Assembly (NCBI GenBank): GCA_947454705.1
Contig: CANGKZ010000001.1
Span: 1-64,000 of the forward strand
Length of the DNA stretch: 64,000 nucleotides
Direction: 5' to 3'
DNA from: Verrucomicrobiota bacterium
Lineage (GTDB): Bacteria > Verrucomicrobiota > Verrucomicrobiia > Limisphaerales > UBA9464
A model generated the notes under the pieces. The model was not told the DNA's origin. It worked only from the letters and a program-made list of their open reading frames with translations, and did no database searches. Made by a program: the position numbers and the translations under genes. Shown here in pieces: positions 25,327-61,596 of this stretch; the first letter of the stretch is position 1; every line of letters starts with the position of its first letter.

Positions 25327-27147
25327 ATGTGTGGAATCGGCGGAATACTTAGGCCCTCCGGCACTTTGGAGGAACTCCGGCAGCGGCTGGACGCCTTGCG
25401 TTCGGCCCTAAGCCATCGGGGTCCCGATGCCGAAGGGAGCTTCGTCGCCGAAACTCTTGACTGTGGATTCGTCCACACCCGCCTTGCCATTCTTGGGCTT
25501 GCTCCCACGGGCCGGCAACCGATGACCACGGCAGACGGGCGGTTCTGCATTACCTTCAACGGAGAAATCTACAATTTCCGACGACTGCGTCAGGAACTTG
25601 AGCAGCGGGGCTGTCGCTTTCATTCCGAGACCGATACAGAAGTCATCCTGCAGCTCTTCCGTCTCGACGGACCCTCCTGTGTGAACCGTCTTGAAGGTAT
25701 GTTTGCCTTCGTGGTCTGGGACACCGTCGAAAGAACCGCCTTCGCTGCAAGGGATCCCTTCGGAATCAAGCCGTTCTACTATTCCCACGGACCTTCAGGG
25801 GAGTTTGCGTTTGCCTCCGAGTTAAAGGCGCTGATTCAGGTCAAGGCAGGCCCCCACCACCTTTGTATGGAGGCGGTTTTGGGCTATCTGCTGACCGGAT
25901 CCGTTCCGGAGCCCAACACGCTTGTGGAAGGAATCCGCTGTCTTCCTGCGGGACATTCCTTGGTTTGGAAGGATGGAACCTGCCGTCTGGAAAAGTACTG
26001 GGAAGCAACGTTTCCGAAAGCGGAATGCAGTTGGGATGAGGCCGTAGGCCGCGCACGAGAGGCGTTGGAGGCTTCTGTTCGTCGTCACTTTGTGAGCGAC
26101 GTGCCGGTTGGAGTATTTCTCAGTGGGGGGTTGGATTCCACCGCACTCGTTGCCCTCGCTTCCCGCATCGGAACGCGGGATCTGAGAACCTTTTGTCTGA
26201 GGTTTGATGAGCCCACCTTCGACGAATCAGAGGTGGCTTTGCAGACGGCGCGCCATTTCGGCTACTCCTTTGAAACGTGGCGCCTCGACGCCAATGCTGC
26301 GCGTCCCGTGCTCGGCGAGTACCTGAACGCCATGGACCAGCCGAGTATCGACGGATTCAATACGTTTTGCGTTGCCCGACACGCCCATCACTCCGGCATG
26401 AAGGTTGTCTTGTCCGGCCTTGGTGGCGACGAGCTATTTGGCGGCTACGCATCCTTCGTCCGAATTCCTCAACTCATGCAGGCGATGGAGTTGCTGGAAG
26501 GAATCGGTCTCCGTAAAACCGCGATCCGTTTTCTGAAAAATGCCACTGGGCCACGCCGCCGCGTGGTTGCAGCGCTCGGGGAAGGACCCGATTGGGGCAT
26601 CACTCACTGGGCCATGCGGGGAATCTTTACACCGCTTGAGGCCCTGGCAATTGCCAAGGGGTTCCAGAGGGGCGACACGAGCCTCCCCTCTGCTGCTGAA
26701 CTAATCCGAAGCCAGAAGGTCGCATACAACTCCCCCGTACCCTCCGCAAAGGATTGGGTGTGCCGGCTGGAATTCGACCGCTATCTTCGAAATCAGCTTC
26801 TCCGGGATTCGGACATCTTCAGCATGGCCTGGGCCATGGAACTTCGGGTTCCATTTGTTGATCGCTCCCTCTTCGAATCGATCTCTTCGATTCCTGCGAG
26901 GCATCGTCTTGCTTCCGGAAAAAAGCTGCTTCAGGCGGCTGTTCCTGAACTTCCCCAATGGGTAACCGGCCGTCGGAAGCAGGGATTCGTGGTTCCATTC
27001 TCGAAATGGGCCCTCACGGAATGGAATCAACAGCTCGGAGCGACCGAGGCGAGTTCTGCAGTTCCTTTGTCCGCTTGGTATCAACGTTGGGCGCTCTTCG
27101 CACTGGATCAGTTCGTCAGACGTCACGGCTTGCAGGCAACGGGCTGA
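25327..27147 (+). CDS. asnB: Asparagine synthase (glutamine-hydrolysing), AsnB type
   Basis: 606 residues. The start MCGIGGIL gives the catalytic Cys2 of a class II glutamine amidotransferase. The N-terminal domain (to about 200) has LSHRGPDAEG and FNGEIYNFRRLR. The synthetase domain has the ATP-binding SGGLDSTALVAL loop (about 265-276) and VLSGLGGDELFGGY. In primary metabolism it makes asparagine from aspartate, ATP and glutamine. AsnB-like enzymes are also common in polysaccharide and exosortase-linked loci, where they are thought to amidate sugars. Its place at the head of this locus favours such a role here (inference). Confidence 0.92.
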   Translation: MCGIGGILRPSGTLEELRQRLDALRSALSHRGPDAEGSFVAETLDCGFVHTRLAILGLAPTGRQPMTTADGRFCITFNGEIYNFRRLRQELEQRGCRFHSETDTEVILQLFRLDGPSCVNRLEGMFAFVVWDTVERTAFAARDPFGIKPFYYSHGPSGEFAFASELKALIQVKAGPHHLCMEAVLGYLLTGSVPEPNTLVEGIRCLPAGHSLVWKDGTCRLEKYWEATFPKAECSWDEAVGRAREALEASVRRHFVSDVPVGVFLSGGLDSTALVALASRIGTRDLRTFCLRFDEPTFDESEVALQTARHFGYSFETWRLDANAARPVLGEYLNAMDQPSIDGFNTFCVARHAHHSGMKVVLSGLGGDELFGGYASFVRIPQLMQAMELLEGIGLRKTAIRFLKNATGPRRRVVAALGEGPDWGITHWAMRGIFTPLEALAIAKGFQRGDTSLPSAAELIRSQKVAYNSPVPSAKDWVCRLEFDRYLRNQLLRDSDIFSMAWAMELRVPFVDRSLFESISSIPARHRLASGKKLLQAAVPELPQWVTGRRKQGFVVPFSKWALTEWNQQLGATEASSAVPLSAWYQRWALFALDQFVRRHGLQATG

Positions 27148-28921: not shown

Positions 28922-30646
28922 ATGTACATTCTCGGCATTAATGCCTACCACGGGGACTCCTCCGCCGCCTTGCTCCACAACGGCGAACTGGTTGCTGCGG
29001 TTGAGGAGGAACGCTTCCGCCGAATCAAACATTGGGCTGGTTTTCCCTCCGAAAGCATCCGGTATTGCCTGGAACATGCTGGGATCGGAGTCGAGCAACT
29101 CGACCACATCGCCCTGTCCTTTGACCCCAAGGCGAACGTCGGCAAGAAGGCCCTGTTCGCACTTACCAAGCGTCCGTCCCTGCAGGCCATCCTCGACCGC
29201 CTCGGACGCCAGAGCAAAACACTGGGAATTCGCGATGAACTCAGCCGCGCCTTCGGAATCGACGCCAACCGGATTAAGGCAAAGCTCCACAATGTGGAAC
29301 ATCATGATTCCCACGTGGCATCGGGGTTCTTCACCTCCCCATTTTCTGAAGCGGCCGTCCTGTCCGTGGACGGCATGGGCGATTTCGTCAGCACCGTCCT
29401 CGCCAAGGGGCGCGGCAATCAGTTTGAAAAGCTAACCGAGGTCTTTTACCCACACTCCCTGGGCTTCCTCTACAACGCCATCACCCTCTATCTCGGTTTC
29501 CATTCCTACGGGGATGAGTACAAGGTGATGGGCCTCGCTCCGTACGGCGAGCCGGTTTATCTGGAGGAATTCCGAAAGATGGTTTTCCCCAAGGGCGACA
29601 CCTTTGAGCTGAATCTGGATTATTTCACGCACCAAAAGGACGGCATCTCCATGAGCTGGGATGACGGATCCCCGAAGGTCCTGCCGTTTCACAGTGAATT
29701 GCTGGAAAAGCGCCTGGGCCCGGCCCTCAAACCCCGTGCGGAAATGGGCGAACGTGAGCAGAACCTCGCGGCTTCGCTCCAACGGGTGACAGAAGAAATC
29801 ATTTTCCACCTCCTCAACCGGCTCCATACGATGCATCCCGTGGAGGAGGTTGTCATGGTCGGCGGTTGCGCGATGAACTCCGTAGCCAACGGAAAGATCA
29901 CACGCAACACCCCCTTCAAACGCGCCTTCATCCCCGTGGGTGCCGCCGACAACGGAACTGCATTTGGAGCGGCTTTCGATGTCTGGAATCGGGTTCTCGG
30001 CAATCCCCGCAAGTTTGAGTTGATCCACGGGTTCTGGGGTCCTTCCTACACCTCGGAACAATGCGCCGAAGCCGCCAAGGCCTACCCGGTGAAAACGGAG
30101 GTGCTGGAGGAGAGCGAGCTCCTCGACCGGACTGTCGATGCACTTTGCGAAGGAAAAGTGGTGGGCTGGTTCCAAGGCCGCTGTGAATTCGGAGCCCGGG
30201 CGCTCGGCTGCCGATCCCTGATCGCCGACCCCCGTCGCACCGACATGCGGGACATCATCAATCTCAAGATCAAGTTCCGCGAAAAGTTCCGCCCCTTCGC
30301 ACCAAGCATTCTCGCCGATCACGTCGCCGACTGGTTCGAACCCGCAGAGCCGTCGCCGTTCATGGAGAAGGTGCTGCCAATACGGCCCGAGAAACAGTCC
30401 ATCATTCCTGCGGTCACCCACGTGGACGGATCGGGCCGCCTTCAGTCAGTCACGCCAGAGTCGAATCCGCGCTATTACGAGTTGATCCGGCGCTTTTATC
30501 TTCGGACCGGGGTTCCCATCGTTCTCAACACCTCCTTGAACGAGAACGAACCCATCGTCCACACCCCGGGCCAGGCCATCGATTGTTTCCTTCGAACCCG
30601 CATGGACCACATCGTCCTCGACCGGGTCTGGGTCAACCGCGTTTGA
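28922..30646 (+). CDS. Carbamoyltransferase, NodU/CmcH family
   Basis: 574 residues, full family length. The N-terminal Kae1/Hsp70-like domain opens MYILGINAYHGDSSAALLH and contains VEEERFRRIKHWAGFP and VEHHDSHVASGFFTS, whose His residues bind metal/carbamoyl-adenylate in the family. Later come VMVGGCAMNSVANGKI and the YrdC-like C-terminal end with GRCEFGARALGCRSLIADPR and FREKFRPFAPSIL. It uses carbamoyl phosphate and ATP to O-carbamoylate a sugar, as in Nod factor or antibiotic synthesis. In this locus it would decorate the polysaccharide or its precursor. Confidence 0.92.
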   Translation: MYILGINAYHGDSSAALLHNGELVAAVEEERFRRIKHWAGFPSESIRYCLEHAGIGVEQLDHIALSFDPKANVGKKALFALTKRPSLQAILDRLGRQSKTLGIRDELSRAFGIDANRIKAKLHNVEHHDSHVASGFFTSPFSEAAVLSVDGMGDFVSTVLAKGRGNQFEKLTEVFYPHSLGFLYNAITLYLGFHSYGDEYKVMGLAPYGEPVYLEEFRKMVFPKGDTFELNLDYFTHQKDGISMSWDDGSPKVLPFHSELLEKRLGPALKPRAEMGEREQNLAASLQRVTEEIIFHLLNRLHTMHPVEEVVMVGGCAMNSVANGKITRNTPFKRAFIPVGAADNGTAFGAAFDVWNRVLGNPRKFELIHGFWGPSYTSEQCAEAAKAYPVKTEVLEESELLDRTVDALCEGKVVGWFQGRCEFGARALGCRSLIADPRRTDMRDIINLKIKFREKFRPFAPSILADHVADWFEPAEPSPFMEKVLPIRPEKQSIIPAVTHVDGSGRLQSVTPESNPRYYELIRRFYLRTGVPIVLNTSLNENEPIVHTPGQAIDCFLRTRMDHIVLDRVWVNRV

Positions 30647-31106: not shown

Positions 31107-31922
31107 ATGGAAGAACTCATTATCGAACCCGGACGCGGGGAGCGAAACTACTGGCGCGACCTGTGGCGCTATCGCGAGCTGTTCTACATCCTGGCTTGGC
31201 GGGATATCCTAATACGATATAAGCAGACTGTAATCGGCGCAGCATGGGCACTGATTCGCCCAATGGTAACAATGCTCGTCTTTACCTTTCTTCGCAAAGT
31301 CGGCCATTTTTCGTCCCACAAAGTTCCCGAAACGATTTTTGTATTCGCCGCGGTTCTGCCGTGGCAGTTCTTTTCAAGCGCTTTGTCCGATGCCTCCAAC
31401 AGCCTGCTAACCAACAGCAACCTGATCTCAAAGACCTACTTCCCCCGGCTACTAATACCGGCGAGTTCAGTGGCCACCAGCCTGGTGGACTTCACGATTT
31501 GCCTCGGGTTCCTGGGTATTCTAATGGCCACAAACGGCTTTATGCCCGGACCCCAACTTTTGGCGCTGCCCTTCCTGATCATCCTAACTTTTGCTCTCTC
31601 CACCGGAGCCGGCCTCTGGCTAGCGGCGCTCAACGTAGAATACCGTGATTTTCGCTACATCGTTCCGTTTATTGTTCAGTTCGGCCTTTTTGTTTCACCC
31701 ATCGCAATCTCCAGTAGCGACATTCCAACGAGCTGGCGCTGGCTTTACAACGTTAACCCGATGGTCGGTATCATCGATGGCTTCCGATGGAGCATCTGCG
31801 CGGGAATTCCCCCCATCGCTCCGTCCACCTTTCTTACCTCCGTCGCCATCAGCATCCTTCTTCTCGTCTCCGGCGTCGCCTATTTTCGAAAAATGGAGCG
31901 AGGCTTCGCTGACGTTATCTAA
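31107..31922 (+). CDS. ABC-2 type polysaccharide/O-antigen export permease (Wzm-like)
   Basis: 271 residues with six predicted membrane helices. Family features are the N-terminal amphipathic segment DLWRYRELFYILAWRDILIR, then YKQTVIGAAWALIRPMVTML, the central NLISKTYFPRLLIPAS, and the C-terminal RKMERGFADVI. This is the membrane half of a Wzm/Wzt exporter that moves a completed undecaprenyl-linked polysaccharide across the inner membrane. The ATPase gene follows 33 bases later. Confidence 0.93.
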   Translation: MEELIIEPGRGERNYWRDLWRYRELFYILAWRDILIRYKQTVIGAAWALIRPMVTMLVFTFLRKVGHFSSHKVPETIFVFAAVLPWQFFSSALSDASNSLLTNSNLISKTYFPRLLIPASSVATSLVDFTICLGFLGILMATNGFMPGPQLLALPFLIILTFALSTGAGLWLAALNVEYRDFRYIVPFIVQFGLFVSPIAISSSDIPTSWRWLYNVNPMVGIIDGFRWSICAGIPPIAPSTFLTSVAISILLLVSGVAYFRKMERGFADVI

Positions 31923-31955: not shown

Positions 31956-33212
31956 ATGAGCAACTGGATCCTCAAGGTTGAGAACCTTGGCAAGCGTTAT
32001 ACCATCCGCTCCGCGAAGACGGAACGCTATACCGCACTCCGCGATGTCATCGCGCGAAAAGCTCGAAGTTTCTTCAACCGCACGGACGCAGAAAAACCAC
32101 CTGCTGACTCAGAACACTTCTGGGCTCTGGAAGGGGTTTCTTTTGAGGTAAAACGCGGGGAAATAATGGGGGTTGTCGGCCGAAACGGAGCCGGGAAAAG
32201 TACCCTACTGAAGCTGCTGAGTCGAATAACCGAACCAACGCGGGGCCGCATCCACGTTCGCGGAAAGGTGGCAAGCCTTCTTGAAGTCGGAACCGGCTTC
32301 CATCCTGAACTTACGGGTCGCGAAAACATCTTTCTGAACGGCGCCATCCTCGGTATGAGCCGGGCTGAAATCCGATCCAAGTTCGACGAAATTGTCCAAT
32401 TTGCGGAAGTTGAGCAGTTCGTTGATACGCCTGTTAAGAGATACTCAAGCGGGATGTACGTCCGCCTTGCCTTTGCCGTGGCTGCGCATCTCGAGCCGGA
32501 CATTTTGATCATTGACGAGGTTCTCGCGGTTGGCGATGCGGCGTTCCAACGGCGCTGTCTAGGCAAAATCGATGCCGTATCCCGATCCGGAAGAACGGTC
32601 CTTTTTGTCAGCCATCAAATGGCGTCGGTCCAAGCACTCTGCAGTTCAGCGATTCTACTCTCCCACGGCAAGCTGCTGAAACACGGCCCAACACAGTCGA
32701 TCATCCGCGACTACCTCACACTCTCGAACGGAAAAGCGGCGCAATCGGTTGAGTTTAGAGACCGAGCCACCGACTTGTCCTCAACCTTACTCACATCACT
32801 CTCGATCGAGGACGCGGATGGAAAGGCAGAAATCTTTACGTCAAGCAGGCTTAAAATCACCATCGGGTATTCCGGGGCCAACCGTCTCAGCGACTACAAC
32901 CTACTCATCGCCATTTACGACCTCGGCAACGCCGGAATTTACGCATTCCGAACAAGCACTTCAAAATCGCTCCCAGACAATCTTCCTCCATCCGGGACCC
33001 TAGTCTGCATCACGGACAGGATTAACATCACTCCGGGCAGATGCTATATTAACATCGCTCTACAGAAATGCGGTGCCAACCTGGACCATATTCCGCACGC
33101 CGCCGAGTTCGATGTTGAACCGGATCCAGAAGTCGACCCCGGATCAATCCCAAGTCGCGATTGGGTGTTGGTTGCCCTCAATCATTCATGGTCCTTTGAG
33201 CCTGCCCCCTAA
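31956..33212 (+). CDS. ABC exporter ATPase with C-terminal glycan-binding domain (Wzt-like)
   Basis: 418 residues. The nucleotide-binding domain spans about 1-250: Walker A GRNGAGKST (75-83), signature YSSGMYVRLAFAVA, Walker B LIIDEVLAVGD, and the late His in VSHQMAS. Residues about 255-418 form a separate beta-rich domain. This matches the Wzt type in which the C-terminal domain recognises the modified non-reducing end of a finished O-antigen chain; ATPases without it export independently of a terminal cap. The next gene, six bases away, encodes a kinase-methyltransferase fusion that could make such a cap. Confidence 0.93.
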   Translation: MSNWILKVENLGKRYTIRSAKTERYTALRDVIARKARSFFNRTDAEKPPADSEHFWALEGVSFEVKRGEIMGVVGRNGAGKSTLLKLLSRITEPTRGRIHVRGKVASLLEVGTGFHPELTGRENIFLNGAILGMSRAEIRSKFDEIVQFAEVEQFVDTPVKRYSSGMYVRLAFAVAAHLEPDILIIDEVLAVGDAAFQRRCLGKIDAVSRSGRTVLFVSHQMASVQALCSSAILLSHGKLLKHGPTQSIIRDYLTLSNGKAAQSVEFRDRATDLSSTLLTSLSIEDADGKAEIFTSSRLKITIGYSGANRLSDYNLLIAIYDLGNAGIYAFRTSTSKSLPDNLPPSGTLVCITDRINITPGRCYINIALQKCGANLDHIPHAAEFDVEPDPEVDPGSIPSRDWVLVALNHSWSFEPAP

Positions 33213-33218
33213 ATTTCA

Positions 33219-34643
33219 ATGACATCCACCGAAGCCGCTTCGCTCCAGTCGCATCCACTATCTACCGCGGATCCATCCGGACGTCTTTGCGAATCCGGCG
33301 AAAAACTCTACCGCGTAATCAACCCGATCAAGCAGGAGCTATATCGGCGGCTCTTTAAGGACGGGACGATCGAGGACCTCTGCAAAAAGGGCCTCATTAT
33401 CAATACTTCCATTGAAACCGACTCCCCGCCGGAATCTCTGCTCATACTTGAGCATCGCCGACTGCCAGTTGTCAGTTATGCGTTTGAGTGGAGCTCGGAA
33501 ATGCTCAGGGCGGCTGCCTTGCACGTCATTGATCTAGAACTGGAACTTCTCAAGAAAGGGCTCTCGCTTCAGGACTGCCATCCTTGGAACGTTCTTTTCG
33601 AAGGAACAAAACCGCAGTTCGTCGACTTCGGGTCCATCCAAACAGAAAAAGGAAACGACATTTGGGAGGCAAATGGTGAATTCTTTCGCTACTACGTATA
33701 CCCTTTGATGGTTCTGGCAACGCCGCATCACCGAATTGTCCGGCACTTTCTAACTGATCACTGGATTGGGATTACCCAACTGGAGGCTGATTTCTTGACC
33801 TCCCGCGCTTCCTCGGAGGCCAAAGAAAAGATCCGAACACTTGTCAGAAGGATTCGGAAGCTCCTTCCAAGCGGGTCACTCAATTTCTTCAATTCCGCAA
33901 TCAAATCCGTCGAGGGCAGAGTCACTGGCAGATCCAAGAAATCGACGGAATCCCGCAGTTCCTACCTTACCCGTCTGCGAACCATGGTGGAGGGCCTCCC
34001 GAACTTTCAGGCGGACACCTATTGGTCGGCATATGCACAGGACGAGTATCCAGACTTCAGTCCATCTGCGACATGGACCGAAAAGCACAGACAAGTCCAT
34101 GCTGCGCTCACAAAACTCCAACCCAAGACACTGCTCGACATTGCATCCAATACGGGTTGGTACTCCATCCTTGCAGCCAAGATGGGAATTCAAGTTATCG
34201 CCACCGACAATGACGAAACGTGTATAAACCAGTTGTTCAGGGAAGCTCGTCGCTTGGAAGCGAACGTCCACCCCCTCTACGGAAATCTTCTTTGCCCGTC
34301 ACCTGCTATCGGTACTCCCGGAACTATGATGCCGGCGGCCGTTGACCGCCTCCGATCCGAATGTGTCCTGGCACTAGCCATTACGCATCACATGGTCTTT
34401 CGCTTCTTCTTTTCTTTGGATCAAATCGTCAATCTTCTGAATGCCTTTTCGAGTCGATACCTGATTGTCGAGTTCGTGCCTAAAGAGGACAAATATGTCT
34501 CAGGATGGTGGGACGCCAGCAAGCCTTGGTACTCGCTCGAGGCTTTTCGAAACTCTCTCGGCCGGTTCTTTGACAATATCGTTGAAATTCCGTCGCATCC
34601 ATCACCTCGGGTGCTCCTAATTTGCGAGAAGAAAAAGCCCTAG
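33219..34643 (+). CDS. Kinase-like/SAM methyltransferase fusion (candidate chain terminator)
   Basis: 474 residues in two parts. Residues about 30-180 resemble a small-molecule or glycan kinase: LQDCHPWNVLF gives a catalytic-loop-like D119/H121/N124, and FVDFGSI a DFG-like D136-F-G. A conventional glycine loop and lysine are not obvious. After a linker (about 200-260), residues 290-470 form a Rossmann methyltransferase with SAM motif LLDIASNTGWYS (305-316), acidic ATDNDE (328-333) and LALAITHHMVFR. NoeA-like proteins share parts of this layout. In E. coli O9a the bifunctional WbdD kinase-methyltransferase caps chains for Wzt recognition; here the domain order appears reversed. A terminator role is inferred from domains plus position right after wzt. 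Confidence 0.7.
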   Translation: MTSTEAASLQSHPLSTADPSGRLCESGEKLYRVINPIKQELYRRLFKDGTIEDLCKKGLIINTSIETDSPPESLLILEHRRLPVVSYAFEWSSEMLRAAALHVIDLELELLKKGLSLQDCHPWNVLFEGTKPQFVDFGSIQTEKGNDIWEANGEFFRYYVYPLMVLATPHHRIVRHFLTDHWIGITQLEADFLTSRASSEAKEKIRTLVRRIRKLLPSGSLNFFNSAIKSVEGRVTGRSKKSTESRSSYLTRLRTMVEGLPNFQADTYWSAYAQDEYPDFSPSATWTEKHRQVHAALTKLQPKTLLDIASNTGWYSILAAKMGIQVIATDNDETCINQLFREARRLEANVHPLYGNLLCPSPAIGTPGTMMPAAVDRLRSECVLALAITHHMVFRFFFSLDQIVNLLNAFSSRYLIVEFVPKEDKYVSGWWDASKPWYSLEAFRNSLGRFFDNIVEIPSHPSPRVLLICEKKKP

Positions 34644-34843: not shown

Positions 34844-35713
34844 ATGGCACGTACCACGTTTCTTGGCTCCATCTCACGGATTCTACCAGACTCCGTACGG
34901 CTACGCCTCCGTTCCATCTATCATCAACACATCCTCTTTCCCCCGATCCGCTTTTCCGGACCATTCGCGACCTGGGATGATGCTGCATCCAGGGCGATTG
35001 GCTACGATACGAACGTCATCTTTGAGAAAACAAAGCGGGCTGCGCTCGAAGTGAAAGAGGGTAGAGGCGTCTTCGAACGCGATTCCGTGGTTTTCCAGAG
35101 TCCCGAATACAATTTTCCTCTGCTCTCTGTTTGCCAAACCACGGCCGCAATACACCACGGCGAACTGAGCGTCATGGATTTCGGCGGCGCCTTGGGAAGC
35201 TCCTATTTCCAGAATCGTCCCTTACTGTTGGGAATAAACCGAATCCGTTGGAGCGTAATCGAACAGGGTTCCTACGTGGAATTCGGCAACAAACACATCT
35301 CGAACCACGAACTTAAATTCTATCATTCGATTTCGAGTGCCGCGGAAGCCGCGTCCCCTAACCTTGTTGTTGCATCCGCGGTTCTTCAATACCTTCCGAA
35401 GCCTTGGGCAATCTTGAACCAACTCGCAGAACTCGACCATGAGATGCTTCTACTCGATCGGATGCCTGTAATTTCAACAGGACCCAGTTTGATTGCGGTT
35501 CAGCACGTCCCAAAGTGGATTTATCCCGCTAGCTACCCGTGCTGGTTTTTCTCCGAGCAGGAGCTGATCGATCGACTGGGGTCCCGTTATATCCTCGCAT
35601 CGGCGACCCAGTCTAAGGATCGAATTAAGACCTCCATCGCTCCCCTTGAATACAAAACCTACCTCTTCCTGAAACGCGGTCTCGTCCCGGGAATTGCCAC
35701 CGCTCGAATTTGA
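34844..35713 (+). CDS. Putative methyltransferase, TIGR04325 type
   Basis: 289 residues. The pattern fits the TIGR04325 'putative methyltransferase' family found in surface-polysaccharide loci: FSGPFATWDDAASRAIGYD near the N-terminus, then the SAM-type motif VMDFGGALGSSYF (110-122), VVASAVLQYLPKPW and a C-terminal WFFSEQELIDRLGS. Its substrate is unknown, probably a sugar in the polymer. It is separated by 200 bases from the fusion gene before it and by 27 bases from the dehydratase after it. Confidence 0.8.
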   Translation: MARTTFLGSISRILPDSVRLRLRSIYHQHILFPPIRFSGPFATWDDAASRAIGYDTNVIFEKTKRAALEVKEGRGVFERDSVVFQSPEYNFPLLSVCQTTAAIHHGELSVMDFGGALGSSYFQNRPLLLGINRIRWSVIEQGSYVEFGNKHISNHELKFYHSISSAAEAASPNLVVASAVLQYLPKPWAILNQLAELDHEMLLLDRMPVISTGPSLIAVQHVPKWIYPASYPCWFFSEQELIDRLGSRYILASATQSKDRIKTSIAPLEYKTYLFLKRGLVPGIATARI

Positions 35714-36737: not shown

Positions 36738-37865
36738 ATGCCCCAACCCAATCCCCAAATCCTTCAGGCGAATCCTAAAGCAGCCTACCTGGAGCACGCG
36801 ACCGCCGTACTCGCTTCAGTACAACGCGTCTTGGAGTCCGGGATCTATATTCTTGGCGAAGAGGTCCAGCAGTTCGAAGTTGAGTTCTCCCGCTTCGTCG
36901 GGGCGTCGGAAACAGTCGCGGTCGGCAGCGGTACGGACGCACTGGCGGTAGCACTCCGAGCACTTGGAGTCGGTTCCGGGGACCTTGTGGCCACCACCTC
37001 CAACACCGCAGTAGCAACAGTTTCCGCGATATACCAGGCCGGTGCCGAGCCAATTCTCATTGACGTCGAACCAGATACTTTGACCCTCTCGCCGTCTCGA
37101 TTTGAAGAGGCGTTGGAGACAAACCCGGGGAAGATTAAGGGAGTCATACCGGTCCATCTATATGGGCATCCTGCGGACATGCCGGCAATTGAGGCGATCG
37201 CCCAGCGCCACGGCATTTTTATCCTTGAAGACTGCGCACAATCCCACGGTGCCTCCCTAAATGGCAGGCAGACCGGCACCTGGGGAAGCGCGGCTGCCTT
37301 CAGTTTCTATCCGACTAAGAACCTCGGTGCACTGGGGGATGCTGGCGCGGTGACTACCTCAAACCCCGCGCTTGCTGAACAGATCCGCCTCCTCCGACAG
37401 TATGGATGGAAAACCCGCTACATCAGCCAGATCAACGGGATAAACACGCGCATGGATCCCGTGCAAGCGGCCATCCTTCGTGTCTTTCTTCAACATCTTG
37501 CCGAAAGCAACCAGCGTCGCGCCGCGATCGCCGACCTCTACACTCAAGGATTGGCTGGATTGCCACTCCGTTGCCCTGCGGTACGCCCAGGAGCAAAACA
37601 CGCCTACCACCAATACACGATTCGAAGCGCCTCCCGCGATCGAATCCAAGCCGGACTTTCCGCCCTCGGCATTCCGTCAGCAATTCTCTATCCGGTACCA
37701 ATCCATCTCCAACCTGCCTACAAGAACGCCATCCGAATCGGACCAGGGGGCCTCCCTGAAACAGAGTTGGCAGCCTCGGAAATCCTGTCGCTGCCGCTGT
37801 ACCCACAAATTCCAAAACAGCACGTCGAACTCGTCATTCAGGCCCTCAGACAGCTGCTAGGATGA
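36738..37865 (+). CDS. Sugar aminotransferase, DegT/DnrJ/EryC1/StrS family
   Basis: 375 residues from the ATG at 36738; the open frame extends into the previous gene. It is a PLP enzyme of fold type I. GSGTDALAVALRALG binds the cofactor phosphate, D165 in EDCAQSHGA contacts the ring, and K194 in FYPTKNLGALGD is the Schiff-base lysine. It would transfer an amino group from glutamate to a 3- or 4-keto nucleotide sugar; similarity of pattern to FdtB/QdtB-type enzymes suggests a 3-keto-6-deoxy sugar. It pairs naturally with the preceding SDR and the downstream hexapeptide acetyltransferase. It overlaps the next gene by 4 bases (ATGA). Confidence 0.92.
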   Translation: MPQPNPQILQANPKAAYLEHATAVLASVQRVLESGIYILGEEVQQFEVEFSRFVGASETVAVGSGTDALAVALRALGVGSGDLVATTSNTAVATVSAIYQAGAEPILIDVEPDTLTLSPSRFEEALETNPGKIKGVIPVHLYGHPADMPAIEAIAQRHGIFILEDCAQSHGASLNGRQTGTWGSAAAFSFYPTKNLGALGDAGAVTTSNPALAEQIRLLRQYGWKTRYISQINGINTRMDPVQAAILRVFLQHLAESNQRRAAIADLYTQGLAGLPLRCPAVRPGAKHAYHQYTIRSASRDRIQAGLSALGIPSAILYPVPIHLQPAYKNAIRIGPGGLPETELAASEILSLPLYPQIPKQHVELVIQALRQLLG

Positions 37866-38893
37866 CTCGACACTACTGCACCTACTTCGATCACCGGTAC
37901 CTTCCTAGGGGGGTTGCCATGTTCGAATCCCTTCGGGCGGTGGCGCCATCGTCTGAACTCTGGGTCCTTTGTCTCTCTGAAGAATGCCACGCAACGCTTC
38001 AGGCTCTAGCGCTGCCGGGCCTCCATTGCATCCCTCTCTCCGAGCTTGAAGCCGCCGATCCAGAGCTTCTCCGTGCGAAATCAAACCGGTCCAAGATAGA
38101 ATATTTTTTCACCTGCTCCCCTTGCCTCCCACGTTATCTCCTCCGAAGCAACCCTGGCATCGAACTCATTACCTACCTTGACTCCGACCTCTATTTCTTC
38201 AGCTCGCCTGAGGCAATATTCGCCGAAATAGGAGATCGATCCGTGGCGATCATCGAACATCGCTTTGTGCCTCGTAACAAGTGGATGCTCAAAAACGGCC
38301 GTTTCAATGTCGGCTGGCTGTCCTTCAGAAACAACCCGCAGGGGGGGGAGTGCCTCGACTGGTGGCGCACGAGCTGCATTGATTGGTGCTACGACCGTGT
38401 CGAACCGACTCGATTCGCAGATCAGAAATACCTGGATCAATTTCCAAATCTTTTCCCTGAGGTAGCGATTATCTCTCACCCAGGGGCCAACTCCGCGGCT
38501 TGGAACATCGAGCGAAATCCAATCCACAGCACCAAGGAGGGCCTCAAGGCCGGATCCGGGGCGCTCATCTTCTTCCACTTTCAGGGCGTAAGACGCCTTT
38601 CTCGCTGGGTGGTGGATCCCAATGTCCAGTGGTTTGGAATTCGACTCTCTGTTGTGATGGAAATGTGCCTATACCGGCCATACCTCGCGCACATTGAACG
38701 AGTACGCACACGCGTTGGCACCACCCACTCAGTCCAATCTGATCTCGTGGCATTGGCGCGCGCACATGATTTGGAAAACCAAGCGCGGGCCGTCGAAGGA
38801 ACCCGCCAACATGTGATCGATTGGATCGCCAACGTCTATCGCCAAAGCCGCGGGGTTCTGGCACGCCGGTTCATGCTGCATCGAGGCCGGTAG
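37862..38893 (+). CDS. Glycosyltransferase, GT-A fold with DxD motif
   Basis: 343 residues. HYCTYFDHRYLPRGVAMFES at the start and ITYLDSDLYFFSSP (D107-S-D109, the metal-binding DxD) identify a retaining GT-A enzyme related to GT8-type or capsule transferases. The middle has KNGRFNVGWLSFRNN and CLDWWRTSC, seen in polysaccharide-locus relatives. No membrane segment. It is translationally coupled to the aminotransferase. Donor and acceptor cannot be deduced. Confidence 0.82.
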   Translation: MTRHYCTYFDHRYLPRGVAMFESLRAVAPSSELWVLCLSEECHATLQALALPGLHCIPLSELEAADPELLRAKSNRSKIEYFFTCSPCLPRYLLRSNPGIELITYLDSDLYFFSSPEAIFAEIGDRSVAIIEHRFVPRNKWMLKNGRFNVGWLSFRNNPQGGECLDWWRTSCIDWCYDRVEPTRFADQKYLDQFPNLFPEVAIISHPGANSAAWNIERNPIHSTKEGLKAGSGALIFFHFQGVRRLSRWVVDPNVQWFGIRLSVVMEMCLYRPYLAHIERVRTRVGTTHSVQSDLVALARAHDLENQARAVEGTRQHVIDWIANVYRQSRGVLARRFMLHRGR

Positions 38894-52983: not shown

Positions 52984-53139
52984 AGATCATTCGATCCTTT
53001 TCCGGTGACGTCTGCCGATTTTTCCTCGGTTCAGGCAAGTGGCTTGCATAGGATGGATCGAGCTTTGTGATCGAAGTTCGGCACGAATCTGCGTCGGATG
53101 CCGGGCAGACTTGGCAACCGGTGATTGGGTTGCACTGAG

Positions 53140-54585
53140 ATGCTCAAGAACCACCTACCAGAATACGCTTTGCTCTCCTTCGCATTCGGTTGCGCAGGCG
53201 CTGTGATCGTCCTCCGGTTGCTTATGGCTCGGGCGCTCATTGGGTGGATTCCCTCATGGCTTCCAGTTTCCCGTCGGCAAGACGAAGTACCCATCCCGCG
53301 AACGGGCGGTTTCGCCATCGTCGCCGGGATTCTCGTGGTTGCTACGATTGGCTGGCTCCGCGGAGCTCATCTTGCTGCGCCTTCCGCAACCACCGGGCTT
53401 TTGGTCGGCATGGGAGGGATGTTCACGGTCGGGTTGGTTCAGGACTTCTGGCCTCGGCTGGGACGCTTTTGCTACCTCGCCCAGTTTGCAGTTGCCCTGG
53501 CCGCCATTGGTTCCGGATTGCGAATGGACTATTTCCATCTCCCAGTCATGGGAGTGGTGAGCCTTTCACCGTTGGTTGCGACTATCGTTACCGCATTTTG
53601 GTTGGTCCTGTGCACAAATGTCATCGGACTCGTAAACGGCATCGAAGGCCTGGCAGGCGGAATTAGTTTAATGGTGCTTGGGCTCACCTTCGATGTGGCT
53701 CACGCCTCTGGAGATGCCGGAGTGGCCTTGTTCATTGCCGGTATGGCAGGCGGGCTTGTTTCTTTCCTGTGGTACAATTTCCCCCCGGCGCGCATCGCAC
53801 TCGGAAAAAACGGAACCTATGTCCTGGGAATGGCGCTTGGAGGCCTTTCCATCGAAGTCAGCCATAAGGGGGCGCTTCAATTTGCCTTTCTGGCACCGAC
53901 CCTGGCAATGGGGCTTCCCTTCTTAGACATGGGTATGATTTTGGCGCGTCGATTGATTCGGGGAATTCCGATTTTTCGGGCGAATCGGCGTCAGATCCAT
54001 CACCAGCTTCAGGAGCAGGGGTTGGATCCGGTCCAAACGTTGATGGTCCTCTACGGGGTGTCGGCCTGCTTTTTAACGGCTGGCTTTGTTGTGATGTGGA
54101 CGAAGGGCCAATTGGTCCCCTTGGTCCTGGCTCTCGTCGCGGTTTTGGTGCTGCTCTTCATGCGGCAGCTCAGCTTGGATTCAAGAGGCCGGTCAACGGA
54201 CACATCTAGGGAAAGCCCTTCTGTTTTCAGACGGGAGATCAAGAACGCGGAGATTCTGGGCAAGTGGCTTAGCCTCCAGTCAACGCGAGTGAACGATTTT
54301 GACGAGTTCTGGACGCGCTTTTGTTACGTCATCAACGATCTCGGATTGACCGGGGCCGAATTACAGGCCAATGGGCTCGATCGATATTTCTCAAGCGGAC
54401 TTCCGACGGGCGACGGCCTAAGCAGCCGGCACCGGATCCTCGGTCCAGGCGGAGTCCCGATCCAGATCCTGATTCGTGGCGATTCAGACAAGACCCATGG
54501 CACGCTTTTCTACACCTTGGCTGAACTGGCTGCCGAGGCGCTGCAGAGCGGACTTCAACGTTCCCGAGGATTTAAATTGGAGTAA
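53140..54585 (+). CDS. Polyprenyl-phosphate sugar-1-phosphate transferase (WecA/MraY family) with extra C-terminal domain
   Basis: 481 residues from the ATG at 53140 (a TTG at 53125 is also in frame). About ten membrane helices carry the family landmarks EVPIPRTGGFAIVAG, GLVQDFWPRLGR, NVIGLVNGIEGLAGG and RANRRQIHHQL. Key acidic positions differ from the textbook motifs: DD is Q101-D102, and DGIDG is N166-GI-E169-G. Residues about 345-481 form an extra soluble domain (EFWTRFCYVINDLGLTGAEL, VPIQILIRGDSD) not found in WecA. The family loads the first sugar onto undecaprenyl phosphate. Position at the end of the locus fits an initiating enzyme, but activity should not be assumed. Confidence 0.82.
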   Translation: MLKNHLPEYALLSFAFGCAGAVIVLRLLMARALIGWIPSWLPVSRRQDEVPIPRTGGFAIVAGILVVATIGWLRGAHLAAPSATTGLLVGMGGMFTVGLVQDFWPRLGRFCYLAQFAVALAAIGSGLRMDYFHLPVMGVVSLSPLVATIVTAFWLVLCTNVIGLVNGIEGLAGGISLMVLGLTFDVAHASGDAGVALFIAGMAGGLVSFLWYNFPPARIALGKNGTYVLGMALGGLSIEVSHKGALQFAFLAPTLAMGLPFLDMGMILARRLIRGIPIFRANRRQIHHQLQEQGLDPVQTLMVLYGVSACFLTAGFVVMWTKGQLVPLVLALVAVLVLLFMRQLSLDSRGRSTDTSRESPSVFRREIKNAEILGKWLSLQSTRVNDFDEFWTRFCYVINDLGLTGAELQANGLDRYFSSGLPTGDGLSSRHRILGPGGVPIQILIRGDSDKTHGTLFYTLAELAAEALQSGLQRSRGFKLE

Positions 54586-54607
54586 ATCCCCCCCACCTAT
54601 TCGATTC

Positions 54608-54635
54608 ACCGCACTTTCGTAAGTGCGGTTTTTTT
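54608..54635 (+). terminator. Rho-independent terminator of the plus-strand polysaccharide locus
   Basis: ACCGCACTT (54608-54616), loop TCGT, AAGTGCGGT (54621-54629), then a run of T to 54635. It is a 9-bp stem with a tetraloop, 22 bases after the WecA-like stop codon. Confidence 0.92.
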
Positions 54636-54688
54636 GTCACTAGCTCCGAACATCAACCTTATCAAGCTCGGACAAATCAGCCCAGAAG

Positions 54689-54757
54689 CGGCAGTGGAAG
54701 GGTTAAACCTAGAAACGGCAGTTCAAACCGCAGATCGACGCAGATAAACGCTGATGG
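54689..54757 (+). repeat. Repeat fragments, CGGCAGT...GAAGGGTTAA and AACGGCAGTTCAAACCGCAG
   Basis: 54689-54706 matches the left end of the 207-base repeat (CGGCAGTGGAAGGGTTAA). 54713-54757 matches the minus-strand repeat at 24761-24798 (AACGGCAGTTCAAACCGCAG, ending AAACGCTGATGG). Confidence 0.6.
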
Positions 54758-54922
54758 GCAGGGAGAAGGAGCAAGGGATACGTTTCCGATTCATTCACCT
54801 GCTGGGTGAGTCACACGAGCGGTCTTCACCTTCTGACGCCCGGTTTCCAATCTGAAAACGACGGCGCTGTCGCTGGTCGTTTTTGGAGTTTCGGCGGCGT
54901 TACCTCGCCGCGGGGCCGCTTT

Positions 54923-54961
54923 CCCCTTCATTGTTTTAACTTTTTACCACTTCAACTGCCG
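54923..54961 (-). repeat. Inverted fragment of the 207-base repeat's left end
   Basis: The minus strand reads CGGCAGTTGAAGTGGTAAAA and then AGTTAAAACAATGAAGGGG, a diverged version of the left 40 bases of the repeat at 19631. It faces the fragment at 54689. Confidence 0.55.
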
Positions 54962-55429
54962 GATTTAGGTTCAACTGTAAAAGCTTTGTGGCCGAGAATC
55001 TGCGGGCAGCGTGGATCGAAAAGTCAGCAATCTGCGGGAGCCTTCTGTAAGATTCGGATCGGAAGATCGGCCGTTTCTGAACCGTGGTCACCCGATTGAA
55101 CGAGTGGTTCGTCGTTTGGATCTCCCTCCAGGAAGTGAATCGTAGCGCTGCGTCTCAACGCTACGGCTAGCTTCAGCGGTTGAGATGTTCTTCCGGGATT
55201 GTATCGCAGACTGAGCCCTTCTGCATCGATCCGTGGTGAAAACTGGTACGAATTCGCGGAAACTGGATGCGAGCCATGCTCCTGGGGGCCTTCGGCGTTC
55301 ATCGGTGCTGGTTGATTCCAGCAACGTTTGTTATTTGGTAAAGATAGTTTCTTCGGAGAGTCCTTCTTTCCACGGCCGAAAGACGGTTGTCCGTTTTGGT
55401 TTCCGTCGAGCCTGAGGGACGGGTGCCCA

Positions 55430-55464
55430 AAAAAAGCGCCGTCCTGCATTGGTACAGGACGGCG
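55430..55464 (-). terminator. Rho-independent terminator of the minus-strand wza/wzc operon
   Basis: Minus strand: GCCGTCCTG (55464-55456), an 8-base loop, CAGGACGGC (55447-55439), GC, then seven T (55436-55430). It lies 50 bases after the stop of the last gene of the operon. Confidence 0.92.
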
Positions 55465-55513
55465 ATTGCTTTTGGTTTGATCCAGGACCAAACCAGCCTA
55501 TTGGCTGATCAGA

Positions 55514-56176
55514 TCAGCTTGGGCCGTAGCAGGATTCAAGGATCCGAATGATGGGTTGATTAGGGTTGGGCTCACCGGGAGGGTTTGCCTGAAAGTTAAA
55601 AATCACCTCAGTAAAATCCACCACCGGGTTGCTGAAGTAGAAAACACCAAAGCGGGGTACGACAGCCGAAAGTTTATTGCTAGGGCTTTGGGCAGGTGAC
55701 GCCATTTGGACCATTTTCTGAACATCGGCTGCGATTTCAGGCCTTTCGGACGACACCATGCTGGCAACTTGTTGAACCGAGGAGGGACTGATCTCGGAGA
55801 TGACGATCATCGCCACTCGATAGGCCTTGGGGGCCTTGCTCATCACCGCAGACATCACCGCGACGGACTCATCGGGTGCGACCGTCAGCACAGCTCGAAC
55901 CGTGGCGCCAACCGCAGTTGGATGCTGGGTCAAAACCGCTTCAACAGCCGCACGAACAACGGCGGAGCGATTCTCCTTTGCGCTGGCGGCAACAACTTTG
56001 GCGGCACGGTAAGGAGCCTCCACCAATTTCACACCAGCGAGGGAGGCCTTAGCCGAAGCGACGACAGGCAGATTCAATTCAGCACGAACAACATCGGCTG
56101 CGCTCGCAGAAAATGCGATCCCGGCGGATGCCAGCATCAACGAGGCCCACAAAAGCGGATTTTTGGAGTTCTTCAT
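55514..56176 (-). CDS. Secreted protein with 15-residue proline-phased helical repeats (hypothetical)
   Basis: 220 residues from the ATG at 56176, the start of a clean signal peptide (NPLLWASLMLASAGIAFSAS, cleavage near 27); the frame is open to 56332 but the extension overlaps the upstream gene. Prolines stand at 86, 101, 116, 131, 146 and 161, exactly 15 apart, each followed by a short Val/Ala/Met-rich helix of the form P-x-x-V-x-x-V-x-x-V. One or two weaker units precede them (from about 56). The tail (about 172-220) is different: aromatic and Pro/Asn-rich, with GVFYFSNPVVDFTEVIFNF and a lone Cys. No family was recognised. It is the last gene of the wza/wzc operon, 22 bases after the PEP-CTERM-like gene, and should be exported. 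Confidence 0.75.
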   Translation of the reverse strand: MKNSKNPLLWASLMLASAGIAFSASAADVVRAELNLPVVASAKASLAGVKLVEAPYRAAKVVAASAKENRSAVVRAAVEAVLTQHPTAVGATVRAVLTVAPDESVAVMSAVMSKAPKAYRVAMIVISEISPSSVQQVASMVSSERPEIAADVQKMVQMASPAQSPSNKLSAVVPRFGVFYFSNPVVDFTEVIFNFQANPPGEPNPNQPIIRILESCYGPS

Positions 56177-56198
56177 AATTCTATTCCAGGAAGTTGTC

Positions 56199-56912
56199 TT
56201 AGACCGTCGCCTTCGAACCACGCTTGCAAAAACGAAACACACCAAGAAGACCCAGAGCAATTCCAACCGCCTGGGTCGCATTGACCTCAGGAACTTCTGC
56301 CATGCGGATGAAACCCCACGAAGTCCCTCCATCCAAGGTGCTCCAGAACTGATTCAACGGATGAGATCCAACCGAAGGCAACGCCTCAGAAACGAGCCAG
56401 CCTGCGTGATGCGAAGCATCCAATCCGTCAAAAGCCAACGTGATGCTCAGGGTTGAAGGGAGACCCTTGGCCGGATCATAAGGAAATACGACCGTCGCCT
56501 TGTTGATCGATCCGGTCACCACCCCTTGAAGGTCGAGAACATCACTGTAAAGAACAGTGCCAGGGCTCGGCTGACCCGCAACAAGCGCACCATCGTTTTT
56601 CCAGATCGTGTACGACACGCCATTCAGTTTCGCGTAGTCGGAATAGTAGTAAAACGAGATACCGCGGAGGACGTTTCCAGCGCTGGGATCCAACGTGACC
56701 TGCGCGCCGTATTCTTCGTTGGGCTTTCCCTGATAGACAGCCTCATTCAACCGTCCAAGATCGTAAGCGGTGCTTGAAGCACCGGGGGCGGCAGAGGTGA
56801 ACACCGACATCGCGAAGTAGGTATCAACCACTGCAGCCTGGCTTGCCGCGCTGGCGAGGCTACCTGCGACGGCCATCAAGAGCGCCGCACGTTTGAGTTG
56901 AGTCGTTTTCAT
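56199..56912 (-). CDS. PEP-CTERM-like secreted surface protein
   Basis: 237 residues. A signal peptide (KRAALLMAVAGSLASAASQA) leads to a beta-rich, aromatic extracellular domain (about 28-200: ISFYYYSDYAKLNGVSYTIW, STLSITLAFDGLDASHHAGW). The C-terminus is VPEVNATQ, a hydrophobic helix (AVGIALGLLGVFRF) and a basic end (CKRGSKATV). This is the tripartite pattern of PEP-CTERM sorting signals, cut by an exosortase, with VPEV as a variant of the VPEP core. PEP-CTERM proteins often depend on exopolysaccharide loci, which fits its place between the O-antigen-ligase-like gene and the 15-residue-repeat gene. No exosortase gene is in the window. Confidence 0.8.
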   Translation of the reverse strand: MKTTQLKRAALLMAVAGSLASAASQAAVVDTYFAMSVFTSAAPGASSTAYDLGRLNEAVYQGKPNEEYGAQVTLDPSAGNVLRGISFYYYSDYAKLNGVSYTIWKNDGALVAGQPSPGTVLYSDVLDLQGVVTGSINKATVVFPYDPAKGLPSTLSITLAFDGLDASHHAGWLVSEALPSVGSHPLNQFWSTLDGGTSWGFIRMAEVPEVNATQAVGIALGLLGVFRFCKRGSKATV

Positions 56913-57019
56913 GGTTGGTCAGTTGCTTGCGAGCCGTTTACAAAATTTCGAACTGTGCGATTTAAGCTCACCCGGTCACCGAAGTCTGTCTCGAAAAATT
57001 GGTAATAAAGGGTGAAACC

Positions 57020-58504
57020 TTAGAAAGTCTCTGGCGTAGTGTTAGCAGACTTGGGGGTCGCGTAAAGCGCAATCGCGCAGCCGAGGGCAAAGAAAAGGTG
57101 TAAGCTCTTTGTGTGGAACGGAATATCCACGCAAGCATCCAAACAAAACCCAGCCAGTGCGGTCCAGAGAAAGGGAACAAACGCTGGCGGAATGATTTTG
57201 AACTGGTTCTTTCTCGCCAGAAGGATTCCAACAACGACAAGGGTCACCAGAATTCCGAAGCCGATTTTTCCATATGAAAGGCGGGCTTCCAACCAGTCGT
57301 TGTGGACCATGCTTTCCCAACTGTCCGCCGTCGGATCCGTGTAAAGGTCATTCACAGCGTAAAAGCTGCCGGCACCGCTACCCCAGGGATCGAAATCCGG
57401 AATCATTTTCAATACCTGCCGGTAGATCGGGAGCCTGCCGCCCCACTCATCGGATCGAGCACGCTCAACTTTCTTCAGAATCGGGCCAATTCCAACAAAC
57501 GCGACCGCAAGGGAAACCAGTAAGCCGGAAACCACGACGCTGATCGTCAAGAATCGAGGGAAGGATTTTCGATTGACCCAGGCAATCAAGGCCATCGCGA
57601 CCACCTGGAACAGGCAGACGACGACGCCAGCCCTGGATGTGGTCATAAACACGCACACAATCATCAGCAGGGCCGCAACCGGCAGAATGGATCCGAGATT
57701 CGACCCAAACCTTGGGCGGGCGCCGGTACGACGGAATTCCCGCAACTGGTTGGTCCACCAAAGCCCAAGGGTTAATGGCCAAATTAAGTTGAAATAGGCA
57801 GTTCCCGTTCCCTGGTAAGAAAAGGGGCCCAAGCTGTCGTGAGCATCCAGCACAAACCGCCAATTGTATCGAGGGAGGATAAAAAGGAGTTCATTGGAGC
57901 GGGACAATCGCTGAATGATTGCTTCGATTGCCATCAAAGCGGTGCTTATGCTTAGAACCCAAAGGAGTTTGCGGATTCCGGGGGGCCAGTGGTTTGAACC
58001 GTTCGCCAGGCTGCGTTGAACTGCCTGGACGCGAATCCAGCGGCAAGTTGCGAAAAAGGCCCCGGAAAGCGCGACCTGCCAATACCATTCGTGTTCGGTG
58101 GCCTTCTGGGAATACGAATGGGGCAGCCAGACAATCGCTTCAAGGTACTGCAACGCAACGCCAGTGCCTCGGATAGCCGCTATGGCTCTCGCGTTCAGAA
58201 AGCTGACGAGGACGTAGACGAGAAATAGGAAGAGTGTGGTGATGAACAACTTCCCGAGCCAAGTTGATCCAAACTTCGGGATTGATACTGGAGGTTTGCC
58301 AACAAGCCCCACGCCAGCAAATAGCATCACCAAGAGATGCATGATTTGCGCAAAAGGTCGCGGGTGGGAATTGAACGCCCACGGCGTGTACACGACCAGG
58401 ACGAGAAGCAGCGGCTCGACACACTTCCAAAGCCAATGTCTCAACCCGTCAATCAGCCCATTGGTGTTCACTTCGAATAGAAATTTGGCACCTGAGCCGA
58501 TCAA
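57020..58504 (-). CDS. O-antigen ligase/polymerase family membrane protein (WaaL/Wzy_C type)
   Basis: 494 residues with about eleven membrane helices. The conserved Wzy_C core is present: MTTSRAGVVVCLFQVVAMAL, the periplasmic loop with DPWGSGAGSFYAVNDLY, and SMVHNDWLEARLSYGKIGFG. The His in the last motif is a hallmark of O-antigen ligases and polymerases. It joins or polymerises undecaprenyl-linked glycans on the periplasmic side. Together with Wza and Wzc upstream in the same operon, a polymerase role is more likely than a ligase role. It starts 18 bases after the Wzc stop. Confidence 0.88.
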   Translation of the reverse strand: MIGSGAKFLFEVNTNGLIDGLRHWLWKCVEPLLLVLVVYTPWAFNSHPRPFAQIMHLLVMLFAGVGLVGKPPVSIPKFGSTWLGKLFITTLFLFLVYVLVSFLNARAIAAIRGTGVALQYLEAIVWLPHSYSQKATEHEWYWQVALSGAFFATCRWIRVQAVQRSLANGSNHWPPGIRKLLWVLSISTALMAIEAIIQRLSRSNELLFILPRYNWRFVLDAHDSLGPFSYQGTGTAYFNLIWPLTLGLWWTNQLREFRRTGARPRFGSNLGSILPVAALLMIVCVFMTTSRAGVVVCLFQVVAMALIAWVNRKSFPRFLTISVVVSGLLVSLAVAFVGIGPILKKVERARSDEWGGRLPIYRQVLKMIPDFDPWGSGAGSFYAVNDLYTDPTADSWESMVHNDWLEARLSYGKIGFGILVTLVVVGILLARKNQFKIIPPAFVPFLWTALAGFCLDACVDIPFHTKSLHLFFALGCAIALYATPKSANTTPETF

Positions 58505-58522
58505 TCCACGGACTGGATCGGA

Positions 58523-60739: not shown

Positions 60740-60750
60740 CAGAGGCCAGA

Positions 60751-61503
60751 TTAAAAGGCGCTTTCGCCGACCGTAATGTTGTCGTCCGAGAGGATTAGAG
60801 GAACTTCACCACCGCCGCCCGTTGCCAAGGCCTTGGCATTGAACCGCAGGATCTCCTCTCCCTTTTCCGTGGAGCGTCGGATCCGGATTTTGGTCGGATC
60901 AGCAATCTTTGTATAGCCTCCTGCCATGGCGATGGCCTGCAGCAGGTTCAATCGTTCGCTGCTTGGAATCTCGTAAACACCGGGGCGGGCAACTTGCCCC
61001 ATCATCACAAACCGCCGGGGAGCAAATTCTCCCACCAGGACCGTAACCTGCGGATGCTGAAGGTAATCGGCTCCATACCGGTCAGAAATTCGCTGCCGGG
61101 CGGCTTCCGTCGTTAACCCACGGACGCTCACGCGCCCGATGAGGGGGAGCACCACGGTGCCCTCTTCGTCCACGCGGGTCTTGGTGCTCAAATCCTCCTC
61201 CTGATACACACGCACTTCCAACGTGTCGCCGGATCGGATTAGGTAAACGCTACGCTCGTCGCCTTTTCCACCGGTGGAACGAGGCGACATCAAAAGAGTT
61301 TCCCCAGAACCGACGGCGGAAGCTTCGACCTTGCCCGCCTTGGGCTTGGCTCCGGCATCGGCCTCTGCTGCAGATGCCTCCGTGGGGCAAATCACGACGG
61401 CAAGGAATAGCGCAAGCCACAGGCAGGCTTGCGTTCTCAGGGAATTCCAACAGCTGATCCCAGCCACCCCATTAAGCGGGACTCTCGGTTGCTTCATCAT
61501 CAT
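60751..61503 (-). CDS. wza: Polysaccharide export outer-membrane protein (Wza-like)
   Basis: 250 residues from the ATG at 61503 (a GTG at 61518 is also in frame). A signal peptide (TQACLWLALFLAVVICPTEA) is followed by a disordered Ala/Lys-rich linker (about 47-85). Next is the polysaccharide export domain (YLIRSGDTLEVRVYQEEDLS, VDEEGTVVLPLIGRVSVRGL), then one SLBB domain (VMMGQVARPGVYEIPSSERL and LLQAIAMAGGYTKIADPTKI). It lacks a lipobox and the C-terminal amphipathic helix of E. coli Wza, so it is a short OPX protein that may need a separate outer-membrane barrel such as the one at 51706-52983 (inference). Confidence 0.92.
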   Translation of the reverse strand: MMMKQPRVPLNGVAGISCWNSLRTQACLWLALFLAVVICPTEASAAEADAGAKPKAGKVEASAVGSGETLLMSPRSTGGKGDERSVYLIRSGDTLEVRVYQEEDLSTKTRVDEEGTVVLPLIGRVSVRGLTTEAARQRISDRYGADYLQHPQVTVLVGEFAPRRFVMMGQVARPGVYEIPSSERLNLLQAIAMAGGYTKIADPTKIRIRRSTEKGEEILRFNAKALATGGGGEVPLILSDDNITVGESAF

Positions 61504-61596
61504 TTGAATCGAGCACACAGTGCTTCTCGCCAGTCGTGTTCAGAATGCCAAAAATCGCGTAAACCCCAAAGGAGAACTTTTTTACGCAGCGATCCC

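Follow-up and report, generated by a model that had tools for sequence, protein, structure and literature searches.

A NoeA-type kinase-methyltransferase next to an ABC glycan exporter in Verrucomicrobiota: a candidate enzyme for methyl-phosphate marking of glycans

The window examined in this work, a stretch of 64,000 nucleotides from a Verrucomicrobiota bacterium, contains a gene (33219..34643, + strand) for a protein of 474 aa which combines a kinase-like part with a methyltransferase and which directly follows wzt, the gene for the ATPase of a glycan exporter. According to the original prediction, it could be a chain terminator of the WbdD type with its domains in the reverse order, forming an independently assembled cap-and-export module. 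The question which this locus raises is whether the protein marks the end of a glycan for recognition by the exporter, as WbdD does in Escherichia coli O9a, and how its kinase-first architecture came about.

The locus and the domains of its kinase-methyltransferase

The gene has an ATG start and no internal stops, and it is present in a single copy in the source genome. Its boundaries, the residues D119, N124 and D136, the SAM motif and the 6-base gap (33213-33218) that separates it from the end of wzt (33212) were all found as originally described. The preceding genes encode an ABC-2 permease (wzm, 31107..31922, + strand; ABC2_membrane, E 2e-22) and the exporter ATPase (wzt, 31956..33212, + strand; ABC_tran, E 2e-23). 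The separate C-terminal domain that had been predicted for this ATPase was also detected, as a domain of the cap-binding type at residues 280-390 (32793..33125, + strand), by a match to PF14524 (Wzt_C, E 2e-6) that lies slightly below the Pfam cutoff. The gene order is the same as that of wzm-wzt-wbdD in E. coli HS (O9). On the 3′ side, the gene is followed by a methyltransferase of the TIGR04325 family (34844..35713, + strand; E 1e-53), a nucleotide-sugar epimerase, a DegT aminotransferase and many glycosyltransferases, and a glycosyltransferase-like protein without any Pfam match is encoded at 37862..38893 (+ strand). The same glycan cluster includes, 5′ of wzm, a carbamoyltransferase and an asparagine-synthase-like protein (28922-30646 and 25327-27147). 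Judging from the sequence, a second polysaccharide export system is present alongside the ABC system at 53125-61518, consisting of a WecA-like transferase and, on the opposite strand, O-antigen-ligase-like, Wzc-like and Wza-like proteins.

An AlphaFold2 model of the 474-aa protein, based upon an alignment of 70 homologs (pLDDT 90.1, pTM 0.91), consists of a protein-kinase-like fold (about residues 1-215; 33219..33863, + strand) followed by a class I SAM-dependent methyltransferase (residues 265-474; 34011..34640, + strand). When residues 1-259 were modelled alone (pLDDT 87), they matched protein kinases by both Foldseek (E 3e-6) and VIA (Z up to 10.7, with 204 residues aligned at an rmsd of 4.6), and the matches listed for this half were exclusively chains of the protein-kinase fold; the kinase of WbdD was not among the best 50 listed by VIA. 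Residues 265-474 matched class I methyltransferases with Z values of up to 18.8. WbdD (residues 10-213; Z 16.7, 181 residues aligned) was among these matches, and MePCE, the methylphosphate capping enzyme, which is itself a phosphate methyltransferase, was one of the closest folds (Z 17.7). This domain has a Rossmann-like SAM fold in which D307 and G313 of motif I and the acidic residues D330 and D332 after strand 2 are conserved; the SAM-binding motif (residues 305-316; 34131..34166, + strand) contains the sequence LDIASNTGWYS at about 306-316. The assignment of the two halves as a kinase fold and a methyltransferase (Z about 17-19) is thus borne out. In the model the protein stops three residues past the last methyltransferase strand, and because of this ending it can contain neither a C-terminal coiled-coil ruler nor a polymerase-recruiting region; a home-made coiled-coil score was discarded, as the positive control, WbdD, scored zero.

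NoeA has been known since 1995 as a host-range gene for nodulation whose chemistry is undefined, and to our knowledge there is no biochemistry for any member of its family. By sequence comparison, the 474-aa protein is a member of this NoeA/Lani_1194 family of kinase-methyltransferases. Searching whole genomes and named contigs, we retrieved hundreds of relatives from many phyla, with E-values down to 1e-50 or better for full-length relatives; identity to family members, NoeA included, was 26-32% over 86-100% of the length, and for the NoeA of Sinorhizobium/Ensifer, found by tblastn against plasmids, it was 27% over 86%. The kinase-first fusion is already known: this family, with about two thousand homologs, was described in 2022, and the methyltransferase part is present in 94% of them (PMC9758233). 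Since the kinase-first order is normal for the NoeA family, it does not reflect a local rearrangement of WbdD, and the idea that the module was assembled independently at this locus was given up in view of the NoeA homologs in many phyla and the 2022 paper. The description of this family also covers an alkaline-phosphatase-fold protein, NoeB, among its neighbours, and its main text does not propose phosphate methylation for these proteins, the word "phosphate" being absent from it (PMC9758233).

Catalytic residues shared with WbdD and differences from known capping enzymes

In the 70 diverse homologs, R32, D119, N124, D136 and E418 are invariant, and the first four of these are retained in 143 of 144 family members that were sampled. 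R32 (33312..33314, + strand) is probably the ATP-anchoring residue, equivalent to R38 of Lani_1194, in whose family an Arg replaces the Lys that is usual at this site (PMC9758233). The catalytic loop D119-C-H-P-W-N124 (33573..33590, + strand) and the metal-binding D136-F-G-S (33624..33635, + strand) supply D119, W123, N124 and D136, which align with D351, W355, N356 and D369 of WbdD. When the profile of the family was compared with the PDB, WbdD was the best match (E 2.6e-8); the alignment covers the two domains in exchanged order, and together with the AlphaFold2 model this confirms the predicted inversion. The similarity between the two kinases is remote: it is restricted to the catalytic segment (E about 0.1), and when solved structures were searched with a profile of residues 1-259, the matches were no better than chance and did not include WbdD.

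In WbdD of serotype O9a, methylation of the phosphate requires each of H132, H133 and R203, whereas the WbdD of serotype O8, which methylates a hydroxyl directly, has no equivalents of these residues (PMC3482155). In the 474-aa protein, H390-H391 (34386..34391, + strand) align with H132/H133 and are conserved in 143/144 and 142/144 family members. R464 (34608..34610, + strand; conserved in 142/144) is the probable equivalent of R203, an assignment made by position and motif rather than from a printed structural superposition, as R464 in SPR-VLLIC and R203 in VPR-PMYLV both lie immediately before the last strand. As the H, H and R residues of WbdD and the D, W, N and D residues of its kinase all have equivalents in the family, we infer that its members may produce methyl-phosphate.

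These likenesses have to be set against several differences. The 474-aa protein shares with WbdD (E. coli O9a and Klebsiella pneumoniae O3) a kinase and a methyltransferase directly after a wzt with a C-terminal domain, but in WbdD the methyltransferase comes first and the protein continues into a coiled coil and a polymerase-recruiting tail, both of which are lacking here; a coiled-coil ruler is carried by the characterised terminators (PMC11231755). ORF6 of K. pneumoniae O7, for which a terminal methyl-phosphate has been demonstrated on an ABC-exported glycan, is likewise a fused methyltransferase-kinase, but it is set apart by its description, with the methyltransferase first, an AmiN-like kinase, a coiled coil and glycosyltransferase modules (PMC11231755). 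The family of Legionella Lcin_0519 also joins a kinase to a methyltransferase in a single protein and often adjoins Wzt/Wzm, but it is described as a different kinase-methyltransferase family, often with a coiled coil; the Wzt-linked Lcin_0519 family is treated separately in that work, and it is Lcin_0519 that is compared there with WbdD (PMC9758233).

An exporter-linked branch of the NoeA family

The 474-aa protein shares with NoeA and Lani_1194 the domain order, the invariant residues and full-length alignability, but it differs from them in its catalytic loop and its neighbours, and in the sample of 144 family members these differences separate 127 canonical proteins from a branch of 17. 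In the canonical group the +2 position relative to the catalytic aspartate is S or T in nearly all members, as it is in NoeA; in the branch, H occupies this position in 16/17, including the 474-aa protein (a D-x-H-x-x-N loop). A glycan exporter was found within 500 bp of 13/17 members of the branch vs 0/127 canonical ones, the Wzx profile used having been built from the exporter-linked branch, which may have let flippases of unrelated families beside canonical genes escape notice. This risk is covered in part by Pfam scans of the immediate neighbours (102 downstream, 114 upstream), in which no exporter permease or flippase families were present among the families listed, rare families not all being listed, and only one ABC ATPase was seen. 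The exporters of the branch comprised 7 Wzt and 6 Wzx proteins, all at most 276 bp away and mostly <50 bp. Grouped by the +2 residue, 12/16 members with His have an exporter nearby vs 1/128 of the others (Fisher p 2e-13, which is descriptive only, the members being related). An ATPase near one member (L014) was dropped as a candidate Wzt, since it has a TOBE domain and is probably part of an importer.

The canonical genes have a different setting. A small one-helix YxDPGSGS protein is encoded directly upstream in 87/124 of them vs 0/17 in the exporter-linked branch, against a background of 21/620 random stretches. These small proteins have 50-80 residues and the motif Y-[IVL]-D-P-G-[ST]-G-S (e.g. 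L012:9736-9951, L036, L033, L126), and they are probably homologs of Lani_1193. A gene of the sulfatase superfamily lies within 500 bp of 68/128 members without His at +2 vs 0/16 with His, and in the Pfam scans Sulfatase was found in 44/102 downstream and 9/114 upstream neighbours. Most NoeA family members lie away from ABC exporters, beside sulfatase/LTA-synthase-like genes, an outcome that the original prediction had named among those that would refute it. The gene at 33219-34643, in contrast to the NoeA operons with their YxDPGSGS protein and sulfatase-like NoeB, has neither neighbour and adjoins wzm-wzt instead.

In the phylogenetic tree, a fully supported branch splits the canonical from the exporter-linked members with the exception of L014, which is placed on the exporter-linked side; monophyly of the exporter-linked group without L014 has a p-AU of 0.52. 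Within this group the type of exporter has switched at least 2 times. The TIGR04325 methyltransferase and a relative of the glycosyltransferase at 37862-38893 are repeatedly present in loci of both the Wzt and the Wzx type, and these co-travelling proteins were also seen in L123, L143, L205, L206, L207, L211 and L213. Judged by the coiled-coil score that had failed its WbdD control, the glycosyltransferase-like proteins at L123:4234-6126, L211:11100-12495 and L213:13340-15247 seem to contain an extended, charged helical region, which might be a separate coiled-coil ruler. In another locus (L218; G711:C3), a broken kinase-methyltransferase copy with internal stops lies beside a Wzx-like gene and a TIGR04325 methyltransferase. 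Members of the exporter-linked branch were sampled almost wholly within the source phylum Verrucomicrobiota, to which the wide genome searches were confined; in plasmid, phage and viral collections no exporter-linked members were found beyond NoeA-type ones, three viral loci being left unclassified.

The pairing with wzt that had been suggested for this gene consequently holds for its own branch, in which 7/7 neighbouring Wzts (that of the present locus and of six others) carry Wzt_C, but it does not extend to the 127 canonical members. In the systems that have been studied, this domain reads a cap at the non-reducing end (PMC9445017). Among the members of the branch, the Wzt C-terminal domains vary and resemble that of E. 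coli O9 only marginally, which precludes deducing a common ligand from them.

Proposed function and its alternatives

We give an even chance to the proposal that the protein is a sugar kinase and phosphate methyltransferase whose methyl-phosphate mark at the non-reducing end is read by the C-terminal domain of Wzt before export. In this proposal, the N-terminal kinase would phosphorylate a hydroxyl of a lipid-linked glycan in the cytoplasm and the C-terminal methyltransferase would methylate the same phosphate. In an ABC locus such a mark would most likely be placed at the non-reducing end, where the C-terminal domain of Wzt could read it prior to export in the manner of the WbdD system of E. 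coli O9a, and it probably serves there as a terminator or export tag. The suggestion of a WbdD-type terminator is upheld as regards the phosphate-methylating residues and, within its own branch, the position beside an exporter. This branch, however, neighbours Wzx (6) nearly as often as Wzt (7), and for this reason a chain cap read by Wzt can account for it only in part. For the close relatives that adjoin Wzx, there would be no point in a stop signal at the non-reducing end that Wzt has to recognise, and in view of these relatives and of the missing coiled-coil ruler, chain termination should not be assumed in every case. The reversed order, the lack of a ruler and the Wzx-paired relatives all argue against equating the 474-aa protein with WbdD.

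The strongest rival explanation, which we regard as possible but on the unlikely side, is that the methyl-phosphate decorates each repeat unit or a short oligosaccharide and does not control chain length, adjacency to exporters then reflecting modification before transport in general. The switching of a single branch between Wzt and Wzx neighbours fits well with this explanation, as do the TIGR04325 methyltransferase and the glycosyltransferase that accompany the gene in both settings, the absence of a coiled-coil extension, and the role of NoeA, which is thought to decorate the Nod factor, a secreted oligosaccharide (PMC9758233). It accounts less readily for the C-terminal domain on every neighbouring Wzt, elsewhere a reader of the non-reducing-end cap (PMC9445017).

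The remaining alternatives concern the chemistry. That the two domains have separate targets, with the kinase acting on a sugar or a lipid-linked precursor and the methyltransferase on a sugar hydroxyl or another group, appears improbable: the residues with which WbdD binds the phosphate are all three conserved across the family, and the fusion is kept by 94% of the homologs, about two thousand in all (PMC9758233), which fits sequential chemistry, although the O8 WbdD does methylate a hydroxyl directly and paired histidines are also found in some methyltransferases that do not act on phosphate (NodS or RebM), including N-methyltransferases (PMC3482155). It is less probable still that the methyltransferase alone works and the kinase-like part serves as a scaffold without catalytic activity. 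The N-lobe is indeed atypical, and its probable ATP anchor is an Arg where a Lys would be usual (PMC9758233), but the catalytic residues (D, N, D and R) are retained in 143/144 members, and the 474-aa protein retains even the H of the D-x-H-x-x-N loop.

Beyond this locus, the mapping of WbdD residues onto the NoeA family leads to one concrete, testable prediction, viz. methyl-phosphate on a glycan. We put forward tentatively, and with less confidence than the function proposed for the 474-aa protein, that the whole family of thousands of proteins, NoeA itself included, may be glycan methyl-phosphate transferases with a domain order opposite to that of WbdD, of which the exporter-linked branch has repeatedly been paired with Wzt- or Wzx-type exporters. 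If this is true, the branch would be another, separate way in which glycans are marked ahead of export, and its members beside ABC exporters and beside Wzx lend themselves to a comparison of what the mark is for.
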